A stretch of 10,320 nt of DNA from Coriobacteriia bacterium (lineage in GTDB: Bacteria > Actinomycetota > Coriobacteriia > Anaerosomatales > Anaerosomataceae), in the NCBI GenBank assembly GCA_016938395.1, contig JAFGUS010000224.1:1-10320 (forward strand), given 5' to 3'. The notes under the pieces are model-generated. The model searched no databases. It had not been told where the DNA came from and saw only the letters and a program-made list of their open reading frames with translations. A program made the position numbers and the translations under genes. Positions within the stretch are counted from its first letter, which is position 1; each line of letters opens with the position of its first letter. Positions 1-10,125 of the stretch are shown piece by piece.

Positions 1-255
1 CACCACATACTCCGGGTGGGCTGCCTCGAACGCCGGGATGAGCACGTCGAAGAGCCCCGAGTCCTGAGTGGAGGTCGTGGACGCGAGGATGAGCTTCGTC
101 GGCTCAGCCGTCGGCTCTTCGGCAGCGGGCTCCTCGGCGGGTGGCTCTTCCGCGGACTCCTCCGCGGCACAGCCGGCAAACGCGAAGAGAAGCGCTAAGG
201 CCAGGACGAGAACGGCGAGTCGCCAGACGGCAAACTCCTTCAAGCGGTCGATCAT
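1..255 (-). CDS. tupA: Tungstate ABC transporter substrate-binding lipoprotein, N-terminal part (runs off the window)
   Basis: This gives the first 85 codons of an extracytoplasmic binding protein that would deliver tungstate (possibly also molybdate) to a TupBC-type ABC importer. Residues 1-28 form a signal peptide with a basic start (RLK) and a hydrophobic core. They are followed by the lipobox FAGC with Cys29 as the lipidation site, so the protein should be a membrane-anchored lipoprotein. Residues 30-52 are a low-complexity Glu/Pro/Ala linker. The mature domain opens with LILASTTSTQDSGLFDVLIP (55-74), the conserved N-terminal block of the TupA family, whose T/S-rich motif contributes to oxyanion binding. 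The ATG is supported by AAAGGAG five bases upstream. That Shine-Dalgarno is the 3' end of a Moco/Tuco-type riboswitch, which independently fits a Mo/W role. The family call rests on this block and the riboswitch context, because the rest of the protein lies outside the window. Confidence 0.85.
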   Translation of the reverse strand, partial: MIDRLKEFAVWRLAVLVLALALLFAFAGCAAEESAEEPPAEEPAAEEPTAEPTKLILASTTSTQDSGLFDVLIPAFEAAHPEYVV

Positions 256-262
256 GGTTGCT

Positions 263-361
263 CCTTTCCGAGTACGGGAGGCAGGTCCGTTTCCGGGTCC
301 CACCCTGTCGGCCCTGCGTCCGTGGCGGCCGCTCTTCCGCGGTAGGCGCACAGGGCTCGGA
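263..361 (-). promoter_or_regulatory. Molybdenum/tungsten cofactor (Moco/Tuco) riboswitch in the tupA leader
   Basis: Read on the minus strand, the leader has the landmarks of the Moco RNA motif in the right order. CCGAGCC opens it (360-354). CCG-GAAA-CGG forms a GNRA-capped hairpin (296-287). The invariant block GCCTCCCGT (282-274) follows, and CTCGGAAAGG (272-263) ends it. UCCGAG (361-356) pairs perfectly with CUCGGA (272-267) as the closing P1 stem. CCCTGT (354-349) can pair with ACAGGG (307-302) inside it. The terminal GGAAAGG runs directly into AAAGGAG, the ribosome binding site of tupA. Ligand binding would therefore most simply hide the Shine-Dalgarno and block translation when cofactor is plentiful, as described for Moco RNAs. 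The tungstate-transport context favours the tungsten-cofactor (Tuco) variant. Whether the P3 element is present cannot be decided by eye. Confidence 0.85.
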
Positions 362-369
362 GACTGTGG

Positions 370-388
370 CCCGTGCATCGGGCACGGG
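370..388 (-). promoter_or_regulatory. Stem-loop just upstream of the riboswitch
   Basis: CCCGTGC and GCACGGG form a perfect 7-bp stem with a 5-base loop (CCGAT). It lies within the predicted tupA leader, eight bases before the riboswitch P1 stem. It is not part of the Moco RNA consensus I know. It may be a 5' protective hairpin or a folding-order element; its function is unknown. Confidence 0.45.
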
Positions 389-399
389 TATCGACCAGA

Positions 400-427
400 A
401 GTGTACCGCAACGGCGCGCGCGAGCAA
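400..427 (-). promoter_or_regulatory. Candidate promoter for tupA and its riboswitch leader
   Basis: TTGCTC (427-422) and TACACT (405-400) are separated by 16 bases and match the sigma-70-type -35 and -10 boxes at 3 and 4 of 6 positions. Transcription would begin near 393-391. The leader would be about 137 nt and would include the stem-loop and the whole riboswitch. The placement is sensible, but the boxes are not strong. Confidence 0.4.
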
Positions 428-507: not shown

Positions 508-1395
508 CTACAGCGCGCCCCGCAGGTGGTTGGCGAGCGCCTCGCTCGCTCGCGTGAGGGTGCGGCGCGGGAGCACGAGGAAGAGCGGACGAGCCGCCGG
601 GAAGCCGGCTCCCACGATCTGCGCCACGGTGCCCAGACCGATGGCCTTGTCGGCCACCTGGGCACTCACGATGCCGAGCCCCATGCCACCCTCGACCGCG
701 CTTACGATTGCCTCGTTCGTCCCCAGCTCCATGACGACCTTGAGCTCGGAAGGCTCCACGCCGCTGCTCCGTATGACGTCTTCTGCGGCCGTGCGGGTAC
801 CGGAGCCGGCCTCGCGGACGATGAACGGCTCGTCGGTCAGATCGGAGAACGCGAGCTTCGGGCGCGACGCCAGCTTGTGCCCCGGTGGACAGATGAGGAG
901 AAGGTCGTCGCTGCCGAGCTGCTCGTAGTGCACGCGAGCCCCGTGGACCTCGGCGCCCGACATACCCAGATCGGCCTCGCCCTCCTCGACGTGAGTGACA
1001 ACGTCCGCCGAGTCGTACACGCGTAGCGTGACGCCAACCTCCGGAAACTCCTTCAGGAAGCTGCCGAGGATGCGGGGCAGCAGGTACTGGCCGGGCGTCG
1101 TGCTCGCCGCAACGGTGAGACGCCCGCCAACGACGTCGGAGAGCGCATCGAGCGCGCCGCGGGCGTCATCGAGCTCCTCGAGGATGCGGCGCGCGTACGG
1201 CAACAGCGCACGACCCGCCTCGGTGAGCTCCACCTTGCGGTAGCCGCGATCCAGGAGCGTGGCACCGACGTCGGATTCGAGGGCCTGGATCTGCATCGTC
1301 ACCGCGGGCTGGGACACACCGAGTATTCGCCCCGCCTCGGAGAACGACTGGTGGTCGACCACCGCCACGAAGGTCCTCAGTTGGCTCACGTTCAC
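508..1395 (-). CDS. LysR-family transcriptional regulator (CysL-like effector domain)
   Basis: This is a 295-residue protein, the normal length for the LysR family. Residues 3-61 are the winged helix-turn-helix: QLRTFVAVVDHQSFSEAGRI is followed by the recognition helix around GVSQPAVTMQIQALE (26-40). A linker helix spans about 62-90. Residues 92-295 are a periplasmic-binding-protein-like effector domain that begins GRLTVAASTTPGQYLLPRIL, a CysL/CbbR-like opening seen in regulators that sense small anions or metabolites. The GTG start is preceded by GGAGGAG six bases upstream and gives the canonical short N-terminus. The next gene in the same direction encodes a tungstate-binding lipoprotein, so a role in oxyanion or Mo/W transport control is plausible but unproven. 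It could equally autoregulate or act on the divergent Fur-metal transporter operon, with which it shares a 167-bp intergenic region. Confidence 0.9.
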   Translation of the reverse strand: MNVSQLRTFVAVVDHQSFSEAGRILGVSQPAVTMQIQALESDVGATLLDRGYRKVELTEAGRALLPYARRILEELDDARGALDALSDVVGGRLTVAASTTPGQYLLPRILGSFLKEFPEVGVTLRVYDSADVVTHVEEGEADLGMSGAEVHGARVHYEQLGSDDLLLICPPGHKLASRPKLAFSDLTDEPFIVREAGSGTRTAAEDVIRSSGVEPSELKVVMELGTNEAIVSAVEGGMGLGIVSAQVADKAIGLGTVAQIVGAGFPAARPLFLVLPRRTLTRASEALANHLRGAL

Positions 1396-1482
1396 GCGCG
1401 GCTCCTCCCTGCTGCCTGGTGCGCTCCCATGCTACCGCAACCCGCACCTGTTTGAGTCGCGCGTGTGTGTGGGACACTGTGC

Positions 1483-1505
1483 TAAGTGAGAAGGGTTCTC
1501 ACTTA
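1483..1505. promoter_or_regulatory. Perfect inverted repeat, candidate Fur-family operator
   Basis: TAAGTGAGAA and TTCTCACTTA are exact 10-bp reverse complements separated by GGG. The site is 57 bases before the GTG of the Fur-family gene and 87 bases from the LysR start. Its length and symmetry fit a dimeric Fur-type repressor, and its position suits autoregulation of the fur-cbiMQO operon. The sequence is not the classical Fur, Zur or Nur box, so the cognate protein is inferred from proximity only. Confidence 0.65.
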
Positions 1506-1506
1506 C

Positions 1507-1522
1507 CGCCGGGGAGCCGGCG
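1507..1522 (+). promoter_or_regulatory. GC-rich hairpin in the Fur-operon leader
   Basis: CGCCGG and CCGGCG form a perfect 6-bp stem with a GGAG tetraloop. It starts two bases after the 10-bp inverted repeat and ends 24 bases before the Shine-Dalgarno AAGGAGA (1547-1553). It could be a leader RNA structure or part of an extended operator. No U-tract follows, so a plain terminator is unlikely. Confidence 0.4.
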
Positions 1523-1562
1523 AAGCGAAAGTGTCGATCCTGTCGGAAGGAGATGCGATCCG

Positions 1563-2051
1563 GTGACACCCATCACGAAGACACCGGGGCAGCCGTGTCG
1601 AGAGGCTTCACCCGCCGCCCTCGCCCACGTCGGCGCCGCCCGCACTCTGTACGGCCACGCCCGCATGAGCGACCAGCGCGCAGTCATCGCCGAAGCCGTT
1701 CTCACCCTGGACTGCGCGTTCACCGCCGAGGAGTTACATCAGGCGCTCACGGACAGCGACCACCGGATCGGCCTGGCTACCGTGTACCGTGCGCTGTCCG
1801 CCATGCAGGCCGCGGGCACGCTCGCTACCGCGGGCCAGCGTGACGGCTCGGCACTCCTCGCCCGCTGCGGAAGGAACGACCATCACCACCACCTGGTGTG
1901 CACCATGTGCGGCCGTGTCGTTGCGGTGGACTGTCCGCTCGGCGCGTCGGTACTCGACGCCGCGAAGCGTGACGGACACCTGGTGACACGCCACGAGATA
2001 ACGCTCTACGGACTGTGCGCCACCTGCCGCACCGACGGAGGCGAGGTCTGA
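1563..2051 (+). CDS. Fur-family metalloregulator
   Basis: This is a 162-residue Fur-superfamily DNA-binding repressor. The core starts at RMSDQRAVIAEAVL (34-47), equivalent to the RxTxQR helix of Fur proteins. The recognition region GLATVYRALSAMQAAGTL (70-87) contains the signature TVYR. The dimerisation domain has a His run (107-110) followed by LVCTMC (111-116), and the C-terminus has CATC (152-155). Together these give the two CxxC pairs of the structural zinc site. The GTG start has AAGGAGA nine bases upstream. It leaves about 33 residues before the usual Fur N-terminus; an internal ATG at 1665 would give a shorter form beginning inside the first conserved helix and is less likely. The stop overlaps the CbiM start by ATGA, so the regulator is cotranscribed with a metal importer. 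That suggests a Zur- or Nur-like role (zinc or nickel/cobalt sensing); the metal cannot be read from sequence. Confidence 0.88.
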   Translation: MTPITKTPGQPCREASPAALAHVGAARTLYGHARMSDQRAVIAEAVLTLDCAFTAEELHQALTDSDHRIGLATVYRALSAMQAAGTLATAGQRDGSALLARCGRNDHHHHLVCTMCGRVVAVDCPLGASVLDAAKRDGHLVTRHEITLYGLCATCRTDGGEV

Positions 2052-2914
2052 TGTCACACATCCACATCCCCGACGGCGTTCTCCCTGTCTGGCTCTGGGC
2101 AGGGGGCTGGCTTCTCGCGCTCGGGCTGATCACGCTGGCAGCCCGATTCGGCGGGCGTGCCGGCGCGCGGCGGGCGGTCCCGCTCATCGGCGCCGTCTCG
2201 GCGCTCGTGCTCGTTGCGATGTCGAGCGAGATCGTGCCCATCGCCTACCACATCAACCTCACGGTCGTCGCCGGCGTGCTGCTCGGCCCGTGGCTCGGCG
2301 CCATCTCGGCGTTCATCGTGGTCCTCGTGCTCGCGCTCCTCGGCCACGGTGGCATCACCGTTGTAGGCCTCAATACGCTCATGATCGCCGCCGAGATGGC
2401 GATCGGCTGGGCGCTCGTCCGAGGCGGGGTGCGCCTGATCGGCCGCACGCGTGTGGGTGTCGTATCCGGTGTGGCGACCGTGCTGACGCTCGCGATCACG
2501 ACCTCGCTGCTCGTGGGCATCGTGGCGCTCGCGGGCACGGGTGGGGCCATTCGCGAGACCGGCGCACTCGACCCCGAGACGCTCGAGTTCCGCGACCCGT
2601 TCTCCGAGGGCGTGTTCTCGCTCGGCCTGCTCGGTGGCGAACACGAACACGACGCCAAAGCGGACGCCGACCATGAAGGAGAGACCGCCGAGGAACACGC
2701 AGCGCATGCCGAGGAGACGCCCGAGCCCGGACTGAACGTCGGGCGGTTCGCCGCGGTGGTCTTCACGCTGGGGCCGATCGGCTGGGCGCTCGAGGCGCTC
2801 GTGACGGCCGCGATCATCGGGTACGTGGCGCGCGTGCGCCCCGGCCTCGTCTTCGAAGGTGCGCTCGCAGCCGATCACCGCCCGCGCTACGGCGATGAGC
2901 AGGGTGGCCATTAG
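2051..2914 (+). CDS. cbiM: CbiM/NikM-like substrate-specific subunit of an ECF metal transporter, with His-rich loop
   Basis: This is the membrane subunit that binds the transition metal, usually cobalt or nickel, and passes it through the CbiQ-CbiO energising module. The N-terminus MSHIHIPDGVLP matches the family motif MHIPDG but has four extra residues. Further signatures are AYHINLTVVAGVLLGPW (65-81) with the conserved metal-site histidine, LLGHGGITVVGLNTL (96-110), and a last helix with ALEALVTAAIIGYVARVRPGL (246-266). About six hydrophobic helices are visible. Before the last helix is an extra loop of roughly 65 residues, whose segment 196-222 is rich in His, Asp and Glu and probably binds metal. 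At 287 residues it is longer than typical CbiM (about 220-250). The ATG has GGAGG nine bases upstream and overlaps the Fur stop. No cbiN/nikN gene follows. Confidence 0.88.
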   Translation: MSHIHIPDGVLPVWLWAGGWLLALGLITLAARFGGRAGARRAVPLIGAVSALVLVAMSSEIVPIAYHINLTVVAGVLLGPWLGAISAFIVVLVLALLGHGGITVVGLNTLMIAAEMAIGWALVRGGVRLIGRTRVGVVSGVATVLTLAITTSLLVGIVALAGTGGAIRETGALDPETLEFRDPFSEGVFSLGLLGGEHEHDAKADADHEGETAEEHAAHAEETPEPGLNVGRFAAVVFTLGPIGWALEALVTAAIIGYVARVRPGLVFEGALAADHRPRYGDEQGGH

Positions 2915-3711
2915 TGGACGTCACCGCCGTCGACCGCTCGGCCGTCACCGGCGTCTCGCCGCTGCATCGCGCCGCGCCCGGCACCAAACTCGTCGGCACG
3001 GCGCTGGTTCTGGCGGCGGTCGTTATGGCCACCGACCCGCTCGTGATCGCAGCTGTCGCACTCGCGCTCGTGGCGGTGGCGGCGTCGTTGCGACTGCCGC
3101 TCAAGGAGATGCTGCCGCTCGCGCTCTACCCCGTGGTCTTCGCGGTGGTCTTCGCGTTCGCCGCTGCGCCGGGTCCCGTCACCGGCGCGCTCATCGTACT
3201 CAAGGCCGTGACCGCCGCACTCGCCGTGGTGGTCCTCATGTTCACTACGCCGTACCCGCAGGTCTTCGCACCACTCCAGCGCATCACGCCCACGCTCGTG
3301 GGCGATGCGCTGCTCATGACGTACCGCTCGCTCTTCATCCTCGCCGAGAAGTCGGCGGACCTGCTCCGCGCCGTGCGGTTGCGCGCGGGAATCTCGGCGC
3401 GGCAGCCGATCCGCGGTGCGCGCGCCACCACACGCGCCCTCGGCGGGCTGCTGCTCTACTCCTTCGACCTGTCGCAGCGCGAGTACGACATCTTGCGCCT
3501 CAGAGGGTACGAAGGCGGGCTCAAGGTCACACCCAAGGTGAGCACGGCGCCGGCCGCAGACGTGGCCTCGATCGTGTTCGGCGCGGCCGCGCTCGCGCTC
3601 ACGCTCGTCTTTCGCTTCTCACCCCCGCTCGCCGGCTACGCGTGGATCGCCGCGCTGGTCGCGTCAGTCGCGCTCGCCCTCGGCATTCTCCTCGGACGGA
3701 GGCCCCGATGA
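2914..3711 (+). CDS. cbiQ: CbiQ-like transmembrane (T) component of the ECF metal transporter
   Basis: This 265-residue membrane protein couples the ATPase to the metal-binding subunit. Hydrophobic helices lie at roughly 27-58, 67-84, 90-112, 217-234 and 240-261. The family's two cytoplasmic coupling motifs are present: SADLLRAVRLRAG (147-159) and YDILRLRGYEG (191-201), which in ECF transporters insert into grooves of the ATPases. The GTG start shares its first base with the TAG stop of cbiM (TAGTG), and the Shine-Dalgarno is weak, so translation is probably coupled. The 3' end overlaps cbiO by ATGA. No internal frame problem is seen, and the length is normal for CbiQ. Confidence 0.9.
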   Translation: MDVTAVDRSAVTGVSPLHRAAPGTKLVGTALVLAAVVMATDPLVIAAVALALVAVAASLRLPLKEMLPLALYPVVFAVVFAFAAAPGPVTGALIVLKAVTAALAVVVLMFTTPYPQVFAPLQRITPTLVGDALLMTYRSLFILAEKSADLLRAVRLRAGISARQPIRGARATTRALGGLLLYSFDLSQREYDILRLRGYEGGLKVTPKVSTAPAADVASIVFGAAALALTLVFRFSPPLAGYAWIAALVASVALALGILLGRRPR

Positions 3712-4670
3712 ACCCGCACACCCACGACGTCACCGACCACACACCGGCCGACGGCGCCCACGGGCACGGCCCTCACGACCACGGCGGGCCGCTCCATCAC
3801 ACACACGACCACGGGCCGCTTGCCGGCGCCGAGGAGGTCGTGCGCATCAGTTGCGTGCGTCACACCTACGAGGACGGGACGAGCGTGCACCTCTGCGGCC
3901 TCGACTTCCTCGCCCACCGGGGTGCGCGCGTGGCGGTGCTCGGCCCCAACGGCGCGGGTAAGACCACGATGCTCTTCCACATCCTCGGACTGCTCACGCC
4001 GCAGGAGGGTGAGGTACGCGTCTTCGGCGTGGAGCCCGCGGTCGAGTGGCGGGCCATCCGCCGTCGCATCGGCGTGGTGCTGCAGAACGTGGACGAGCAG
4101 CTTCTCGCGCCAACCGTGCTGGACGACGTCGCATTCTCGCCCCGCCAGTACGGCCTTCCTGAGACCGAAGCGCTCGAGCGCGCACACCACGCGCTCGGCC
4201 TGCTCGACATCGAGCACCTCGCGGACCGCGTGCCACACAACCTCTCCGGCGGCGAGAAACGCAAGGTGGCGCTCGCCGGCGCGCTCGTGATGGACCCGGA
4301 GCTGCTCGTGCTCGACGAGCCCTTCGAGGGCCTGGACCCCACGTCGCGAGCCGGTCTCCTCGGCCTGCTCGACACGCTCGCCCGCGAGCGCGGCATGACG
4401 ATCGTGCTCACTACGCACGACATCGACACGGTGCCCGAGTTCGCCGATTTCGCCTACGTGCTCGGCCCGGGCGGGAAGATCGCGCTCTACGGCACACCGG
4501 AGGAGCTCTTCGCGAGCGCCGACGTGCTCGCCGAGGGCAACATCAAGCCGCCGGTCTTGGCCGAGCTCTTCGCGCGACTGCGCGAGCGGGACCCCGGCGC
4601 GCCGGCGCCTGCTCTGTCGGTTGCCGAGGCCGTCGATGCGCTCACGGACTGGAAGAGCTGCAACGAGTGA
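3708..4670 (+). CDS. cbiO: CbiO-like ATPase (A component) of the ECF metal transporter, with His-rich N-terminus
   Basis: This is a 320-residue ABC ATPase that powers CbiMQ. Walker A GPNGAGKT (79-86), Q-loop LQNVDEQLL (125-133, matching the CbiO-type QNPDDQ), signature LSGGEKRKVALAGAL (179-193), Walker B LLVLDEP (199-205) and the H-loop His237 are all intact. CbiO-type features follow, including the YGTPEELF block at 261-268. Unusually, residues 1-40 precede the ABC fold and contain about a dozen histidines alternating with Asp and Gly, a likely metal-binding or storage tail. The ATG has GGAGG five bases upstream and overlaps the cbiQ stop. A start further in would lose the His tail, but no comparable Shine-Dalgarno was found there. 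The ATPase itself should be functional; the substrate metal is not determined. Confidence 0.9.
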   Translation: MNPHTHDVTDHTPADGAHGHGPHDHGGPLHHTHDHGPLAGAEEVVRISCVRHTYEDGTSVHLCGLDFLAHRGARVAVLGPNGAGKTTMLFHILGLLTPQEGEVRVFGVEPAVEWRAIRRRIGVVLQNVDEQLLAPTVLDDVAFSPRQYGLPETEALERAHHALGLLDIEHLADRVPHNLSGGEKRKVALAGALVMDPELLVLDEPFEGLDPTSRAGLLGLLDTLARERGMTIVLTTHDIDTVPEFADFAYVLGPGGKIALYGTPEELFASADVLAEGNIKPPVLAELFARLRERDPGAPAPALSVAEAVDALTDWKSCNE

Positions 4671-9069: not shown

Positions 9070-10125
9070 TCACGCCACCGAGTGTCCGGCTCTGGTGAGG
9101 GCTTCGCGTGCGCGCCCCAGTACCTCGGACTTCACGAGCACGTAGTCGGTGTCGTAGGTGGACACGGCGAAGATGCTCACCCCGGCTGCGGCCAGAGGCA
9201 CTGCGATGCTCGCGAGCACGCCGGCGAGCTCGAAGGCGAGCGGCCCCTCTACGGCGAGAGCCCGCCACCCCGGCTCGACCACGGCGTCTGTGGGAACGCA
9301 CGCCTCGTCACAGACGATCGAGAGTTCGTCGCTCGTCCGCGTGATCGAGAGGAGCGCGTCCCCGGTCGCCCACGCGGGGTGCGCCGAGTCCGCAGCGAGT
9401 CTGACGATCGCCAGCGGGTAGGGGAGCACGCGCAGCACGAGCGGCCGCGGTGCCGCCACGGCCTCGGGCCCGGTGAATCCGGGCGTGACGACCGTGCCCT
9501 CGAAGGCCCCGGCTGCCCGGTCCAGCACGTAGTCCCGGACGTCGGCGGGCCAGAGCGCGATCGTGTCTCGGAACCGTACCGGATCGCCCGCGAACAGTGC
9601 GCGCACCGCTTCCTCGTATCCCGGCTCGTTGCCGGCGATCGACGACACGAGGCGGTAGGCGATCTCTCGCGCGCGGCGCAGGCGGTCCGGCGCGGCTGCC
9701 ACCTTACGGGCCTGCTCCACGAGCTTTCGGAGTGTCACCGATGCCCCTCCGGGCTGCGTACTGAGCCACTCCCAATGCCGGGGCAACAGTGTCACCTCGC
9801 GCCCGACCACCCCGAGTCTCGGGCGACCGGGACCGCGTTGAGATGGGGCCGCGGATCCGGCATCGGGAGCCTCGACTTCGCGATCGTCAGGCGCACCGGC
9901 GAGGGCTCGGGCCGCGGCCGACAACCTCGCACGCACATCCGCAACGCTGCCGCGGAGGTCGAGCTCGAGCTGCTCGGCGGTTTCGTCGTCGAAGACGAGG
10001 AGCGGACGCTGGTCCCCCGACTCGGCGAGCAGCTTACACGCCTCGGCGACGCGGTCGGGCGGGCCGGCGGCTATGCGCTCGGTACCCGCGAACGCGGTAC
10101 ACGATGTCGATCTGCGTGGATCCAC
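9070..10125 (-). CDS. DUF2239 domain fused to a C-terminal ACT-type domain
   Basis: This is a 351-residue two-part protein. Residues 8-204 match DUF2239: TSCTAFAGTERIAAGPPDRV, then LLVFDDETAEQLELDLRG (42-59), GPGRPRLGVVGREVTLLPRHWEWL (98-121) and GYEEAVRALFAGDPVRF (169-185). Residues 228-351 match ACT-type amino-acid-sensing proteins: LVLRVLPYPLAIVRL (229-243), SITRTSDELSIVCDE (260-274) and AGVSIFAVSTYDTDYVLVKSE (314-334). Neither half has a catalytic motif, so it is probably a small-molecule-binding or regulatory protein. The GTG start is chosen because GGGGGAG lies three bases upstream and because the promoter at 10192-10220 places transcription near 10185. The next in-frame GTG (10179) would then have a leader of only about six bases and no Shine-Dalgarno. 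The flavodoxin gene follows 75 nt downstream in the same direction. Confidence 0.85.
   Translation of the reverse strand: MDPRRSTSCTAFAGTERIAAGPPDRVAEACKLLAESGDQRPLLVFDDETAEQLELDLRGSVADVRARLSAAARALAGAPDDREVEAPDAGSAAPSQRGPGRPRLGVVGREVTLLPRHWEWLSTQPGGASVTLRKLVEQARKVAAAPDRLRRAREIAYRLVSSIAGNEPGYEEAVRALFAGDPVRFRDTIALWPADVRDYVLDRAAGAFEGTVVTPGFTGPEAVAAPRPLVLRVLPYPLAIVRLAADSAHPAWATGDALLSITRTSDELSIVCDEACVPTDAVVEPGWRALAVEGPLAFELAGVLASIAVPLAAAGVSIFAVSTYDTDYVLVKSEVLGRAREALTRAGHSVA

Follow-up and report, generated by a model that had tools for sequence, protein, structure and literature searches.

What does the leader of a putative tungstate-uptake gene respond to, the cofactor of tungsten or that of molybdenum, and by what means would it act on the gene? 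The question is raised by one end of the window (the whole stretch of 10,320 nucleotides that was analysed), where a sequence-only reading had placed a riboswitch of the Moco RNA family before a gene named tupA. Since 2008, tungsten sensing has been told apart from molybdenum sensing in this family by the neighbouring genes in 19 organisms that carry P3-less RNAs. In the present study, we asked the question of the P3 stem separately for each next gene and for each genome, and the relatives of the window RNA add evidence for the 2008 proposal on which Moco-family RNAs sense tungsten. The reading that we favour, and consider probable, is that a P3-less Moco-family riboswitch controls translation of a tungstate-transport operon, with the tungsten cofactor, or a closely related form, as the ligand.

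Aptamer in the window

When the whole window was compared with 4227 families by cmscan, RF01055 (the Moco RNA of Rfam) matched positions 374..244 of the minus strand over model positions 1-135, with 55.1 bits against a gathering threshold of 36 and an E value of 2.9e-11. By covariance model, the aptamer is beyond chance, and this Infernal/Rfam check bears out the family that had been named from the letters. The motifs on which that assignment was built are all found, namely CCGAGCC, the CCG-GAAA-CGG cap (which is P4), GCCTCCCGT and CTCGGAAAGG. In the cmscan alignment, P1, P2, P4, P5 and the GNRA (GAAA) tetraloop on P4 are all present (Table 1), and the RNA stands before a Mo/W transport gene; the gene itself is visible to residue 85 and is assigned as tupA via its relatives. 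No P3 stem lies between P2 and P4: the P3 columns are deleted in the alignment and the 5-nt linker CGACA takes their place, so that the earlier suggestion of a P3-less form also holds upon inspection. The overlap with the Shine-Dalgarno sequence of tupA had likewise been read correctly: GGAG is the 3' strand of P1, and this overlap is kept in 58/58 tupA-first leaders of the class to which the closest relative (L001, see below) belongs, each with an ATG or GTG 5-8 nt after the 3' strand of P1. However, P1 is not the perfect 6-bp helix that had been described; it has 4 contiguous Watson-Crick pairs (CTCC/GGAG), which cmscan extends by a single U-A pair beyond a bulged C, before a mismatch. Similarly, the proposed span of 256-427 does contain the aptamer, but is wider than the stretch from P1 to P1, and its part from 375 to 427 contains most of an upstream hairpin (P0) and a weak promoter-like pair. 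Along the minus strand, the order is thus the LysR gene, the promoter-like pair, P0, the Moco RNA and the gene start. The folding energy of the window leader (z -1.13) is uninformative on its own.

Table 1. Features of the leader and its neighbouring genes, in coordinates of the window
Feature	Position	Strand	Basis
LysR-family regulator gene, upstream of the leader, same direction	508..1395	minus	NCBIfam NF040786, 264.7 bits (cut-off 250)
Weak promoter-like pair, TTGCTC (427-422) and TACACT (405-400), 16-nt spacer	400..427	minus	comparative script, no shuffled control
P0 hairpin, 7 pairs, loop 5, GC-rich, upstream of P1	370..388	minus	strict definition, found in 44/58 class tupA leaders
Aptamer core, P1 to P1	261..362	minus	RF01055 match, coordinates rechecked, structure counts
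P1	362-359 with 264-261	minus	part of aptamer core
P2	356-345 with 321-311	minus	part of aptamer core
Linker CGACA in the place of P3	310-306	minus	part of aptamer core
P4, GAAA loop 293-290	305-294 with 289-279	minus	part of aptamer core
P5	278-277 with 269-268	minus	part of aptamer core
GGAG, 3' strand of P1 and Shine-Dalgarno of the gene starting at 255, 5-nt gap	261..264	minus	sequence; same geometry in 58/58 class tupA-first leaders
Start of tupA, lipoprotein-like N terminus, 85 aa, leaves the window	1..255	minus	tblastn relatives; full protein of L001

The downstream gene and its operon

The 85-residue piece, which contains the stretch STTSTQDSGLF, gave no Pfam match itself. By tblastn, relatives of the piece were found at at least 37 loci, the best among the matches listed being L001, which is 66% identical in the best segment. 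The full protein of L001 matches Pfam PBP_like_2, PDB 3lr1 (a periplasmic tungstate-binding protein in its depositors' naming) at E 2.2e-69, and NCBIfam TupA (NF041772) at E 1.5e-59 with 201.5 bits, under the strict cut-off of 400. Through these relatives, the claim that the leader precedes tupA is supported. In L001, tupA is followed by genes for a permease (E 3.8e-44 to the TupB model, under the cut-off of that model), an ATPase with a TOBE domain, a fused MobA-FdhD and MoeA. The operon of the relatives may be written as tupA, tupB, tupC, a mobA-fdhD fusion and moeA, and beyond base 1 the operon of the window is presumed from them. The fusion of FdhD (formate-dehydrogenase sulfurtransferase) to MobA would be compatible with a tungsten formate dehydrogenase.

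Conservation of the RNA among relatives

RF01055 exceeded the cut-off in 12/12 loci (L001-L012), although the L007 copy is some 5 kb upstream of the matched gene, and the RNA is present in 68 of 197 sampled genomes of the class of L001 (below, the class). Removal of six spurious sequences by hand from 313 parsed RNAs left 307 unique RNAs in 295 operons: 123 from the class, 6 from other actinobacterial classes, 28 from Pseudomonadota and 150 from Bacillota, whose loci are the best-scoring part of the match lists and thus a non-random sample. On stretches fetched around the matches, the first downstream gene was assigned by tblastn with a protein panel, and P3 was called by script and not with a new covariance model, because a MAFFT alignment mixing the RNAs with and without P3 misplaced it. 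Script and printed cmscan alignment agree for 10/10 RNAs having both. Some calls were set by hand: L147, L272 and L311 as having P3, L237, L253, L247 and L314 as P3-less, and L242 and L199 as unknown (L242 is P3-less by cmscan, yet was counted as unknown); L240 was set as P3-less by eye. Outside the 307 RNAs are 16 loci without a parsed RNA, all read by cmscan, among which only L088 has tupA first and was added by hand as P3-containing.

All 58 tupA-first RNAs of the class (57 loci) are without P3, four of them corrected by eye (L237, L247, L253 and L240), as are all 42 leaders of MopB-type (molybdopterin-oxidoreductase) genes in the class and the six tupA leaders of other actinobacterial classes. 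Each of the 28 parsed Pseudomonadota RNAs has P3 and precedes moaA (L147 set by hand), and two unparsed ones, L142 and L146, look like them in both respects. Judged by eye, five of the six leaders from other actinobacterial classes have a GC hairpin and a T-rich tail after the aptamer. Leaders L009-L012 and L044 of these classes are like the window leader in having a P3-less aptamer before tupABC-type genes, but differ in that the GC hairpin and T-rich stretch come right after the aptamer, with the coding match about 310-375 nt further on (by eye). This arrangement suggests transcriptional control, and the expression platform thus appears to differ among actinobacterial classes while the aptamer persists.

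An alignment of 40 of the 64 listed tupA leaders, its rows chosen by hand, was compared with 500 shuffles. The structure pairs in 88.4% of its cells against 75.9% in the shuffles, none of which reaches the observed value. Changes on both sides are seen in 24/36 pairs, including 7 that belong to the added hairpin, and in 17/29 pairs when that hairpin is left out.

Other arrangements of the RNA were also observed. In Bacillota, tandem RNAs of the Moco family stand before a single gene (L258, L262, L264, L267 and others), and in L242, L217, L258, L284 and similar loci, the gene after the RNA encodes a long protein that is secreted or rich in repeats; for L242 and L217, the initial part of this protein has no Pfam family match. 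Upstream of many MopB-type leaders of the class (for example L071, L076, L077 and L081), a palindrome of the type TTGTAAC-N4-GTTACAA was seen by eye, resembling the site of a regulator.

P3 and the metal

As reported in Regulski 2008 (PMC2408646), 58 of 176 RNAs were without P3, and 17 of the 19 organisms that carry RNAs of this form showed signs of tungsten-cofactor use, although the assignment of tungsten use itself drew on homologues of tupA and tupB. The window RNA resembles the P3-lacking type of that report in the absence of P3, the context of tungsten transport and a ribosome binding site within P1, and Actinobacteria are among the groups named in its abstract. By comparison with the text of the paper, the leader described here adds a GC-rich hairpin upstream of P1.

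When the operons of all groups are counted, those beginning with tupA number 78 without P3 and 2 with it (L332 and L088, the latter by cmscan), whereas those beginning with modA number 5 without and 13 with P3 (Fisher p 1.5e-10, uncorrected for kinship). The single genomes of the class point in the same direction. In searches of 50 of the 68 genomes that carry the RNA and of 20 without it, TupA was found in 44/50 against 3/20 (Fisher p 1e-8) and the N-terminal domain of AOR in 45/50 against 8/20 (p 4e-5), whereas ModA exceeded the cut-off in 7/50 against 11/20 (p 8e-4). Genes of tungsten use, which would be expected with the P3-lacking (Tuco) type, accompany the RNA in the relatives of the window. 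There are exceptions. P3 is present in 4/13 operons that begin with a tupB-like permease, and one of the two modA operons of the class (L070) is P3-less. Furthermore, the rule that connects P3 with the metal is imperfect because in genome G046, which has AOR and no TupA, a gene of another type is preceded by an RNA with a P3-like hairpin. With these exceptions, the pattern of operons fits the proposal of Regulski 2008 that P3-less RNAs sense the tungsten cofactor.

A different explanation, which seems unlikely to us, is that the same translational riboswitch is blind to the difference between the tungsten and molybdenum cofactors, or senses metal-free molybdopterin, and that the absence of P3 follows lineage. 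In the class, the leaders of tupA and of MopB-type genes lack P3 regardless of the gene, and in Bacillota, both moaA and moeA operons have the two forms, P3 being absent in 6/11 moaA-first operons of that group and in 5/23 moeA-first operons. According to a 2024 paper (PMC10845959), the exact metabolite has not been identified even for E. coli. However, within Bacillota the form still tracks the transporter, with ratios of P3-less to P3-containing operons of 14:2 for tupA and 4:12 for modA (Fisher p 0.001, for best-scoring loci and uncorrected for kinship). In addition, the class offers a natural contrast to its P3-less RNAs on tupA: G037, the only class genome with four P3-containing RNAs (by script or cmscan), one of them before ModA, has ModA and is without TupA and AOR. 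The RNAs of L252 (two RNAs) and L316, from the same genome, have, besides P3, about 25 additional nt inserted in the loop of P5. Sensing of the tungsten cofactor remains our preferred reading of the P3-less RNAs, although, as reported in Regulski 2008 (PMC2408646), deletion of P3 from the E. coli RNA led to loss of control and not to a switch of metal.

Among other literature, two reviews (PMC9971707 and PMC10043782) list the tungsten cofactor as a riboswitch ligand, with reference to the 2008 paper. For Dehalogenimonas, a Moco riboswitch is described upstream of moaA (PMC13390414). In the passages considered, a description of Geobacter tupABC (PMC2996986) makes no tie to Moco RNA, and PMC13396061 concerns an unrelated RNA. 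Among titles and the beginnings of abstracts in open-licence literature, no later paper was found that deals with P0 or with P3-less RNAs of this class.

Possible mechanism of control

An ample supply of the tungsten cofactor, or of a closely related form, would lead to its binding at the junction of P2, P4 and P5 and to stabilization of P1; with P1 formed, the GGAG Shine-Dalgarno of tupA would be held in a helix and translation would fall. When the cofactor is scarce, P1 would open and tupA would be translated. We infer the ligand and its binding, and the direction of control, down with the cofactor, is carried over by analogy from the E. coli moaA RNA. That RNA is like the one in the window in belonging to the same family, in having the ribosome binding site in P1 and in translational control; it differs in that P3 is present and in preceding moaABCDE, and it was reported to be unresponsive to the tungsten cofactor (PMC2408646). 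In the predicted ensemble, forcing P1 costs 0.7 kcal/mol and opening the Shine-Dalgarno 1.7 kcal/mol relative to the free ensemble; the two states are therefore close, and a ligand could decide between them. Such close states in the model agree with what has been reported for the moaA RNA of E. coli, in which P1 mediates repression (PMC2408646). An alternative CCGAG/CTCGG pairing that would free the Shine-Dalgarno was considered and rejected, its probability being 0.03-0.05 per pair against 0.32-0.34 for P1. The window leader is short, needs no terminator and lends itself to testing as a simple translational fusion.

Upstream hairpin and promoter region

P0 is absent from the Rfam model and is a lineage-specific addition to a known RNA family. 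It was defined strictly as a perfect stem with 6 or more pairs, at least 4 of them G-C, with a loop of 3-8 nt, ending 2-13 nt before P1. The strict form was used because a looser definition, which found hairpins in 51/63 tupA leaders (20 shuffles: mean 25.1, maximum 29), also placed them in 12/42 MopB-type leaders (mean 8.65, maximum 12). Under the strict definition, the 44 class tupA leaders with P0 (Table 1) compare with 5.4 on average and at most 11 of 58 in 100 dinucleotide shuffles, and thinning of related aptamers leaves P0 in 23/35 or 9/19 leaders. Four of the six tupA leaders of other actinobacterial classes also have it (L040 included). By the same definition, P0 was found in 0/42 MopB-type leaders of the class (shuffles mean 1.6), in 0/19 other leaders of the class and in 0/12 Bacillota tupA leaders, the last figure saying little because the shuffles also gave 0. 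The letters of P0 vary, with 32 distinct first hexamers among 44, but its covariation score lies above all 500 shuffles in the 40-row alignment, in which 35/40 rows meet the strict definition and thus bias the score towards P0; one of five measures of its pairs in this alignment, pairs changed on both sides, was not above the shuffles.

In 44/48 leaders with P0, the best -10-like hexamer within 28 nt ends 4-14 nt above the hairpin, as counted by a script without a shuffled control. This spacing makes a start of the mRNA at P0, or slightly upstream of it, likely. A strict consensus scan of positions 200-700 found no promoter and no terminator. One possible explanation, to which we give an even chance, is that the tungstate leaders of actinobacteria are composite: P0, its letters free and its pairing kept, would stand at the start of the mRNA, after the -10 element and before the P3-less aptamer, and work together with the switch; the P3-less RNAs that precede enzyme genes in the class are without it. 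As for its role, one may guess that it protects the 5' end of mRNA that is not being translated, or that it isolates the folding aptamer.

It is very improbable that a protein bound at this inverted repeat (388-370), for example the neighbouring LysR-family regulator, is the main control and the RNA minor: a LysR relative lies upstream of at least 30/58 class leaders, most of them searched over only about 500 nt upstream, and the place of the repeat below the -10-like hexamer could be that of a repressor, but, unlike a protein site, its letters change between species, while those of the aptamer are kept.

Three further observations concern the window. The fold predicted for its leader pairs GGUCGAU, close to the start of the mRNA (about 397-391, minus strand), with AUCGACC in codons 2-4 of tupA (about 254-248), perhaps by chance; the 5' half of this pairing was not seen in L001. 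A match to Magnesium-II at 9928-10033 of the minus strand (23.5 bits, under the cut-off of 40) lies inside the open reading frame 10179-9070 and is likely a chance match. On the plus strand, positions 1419-4670 encode a FUR-family regulator and, after it, CbiM, CbiQ and an ABC ATPase; the tungstate genes thus have a cluster for cobalt or nickel uptake next to them.
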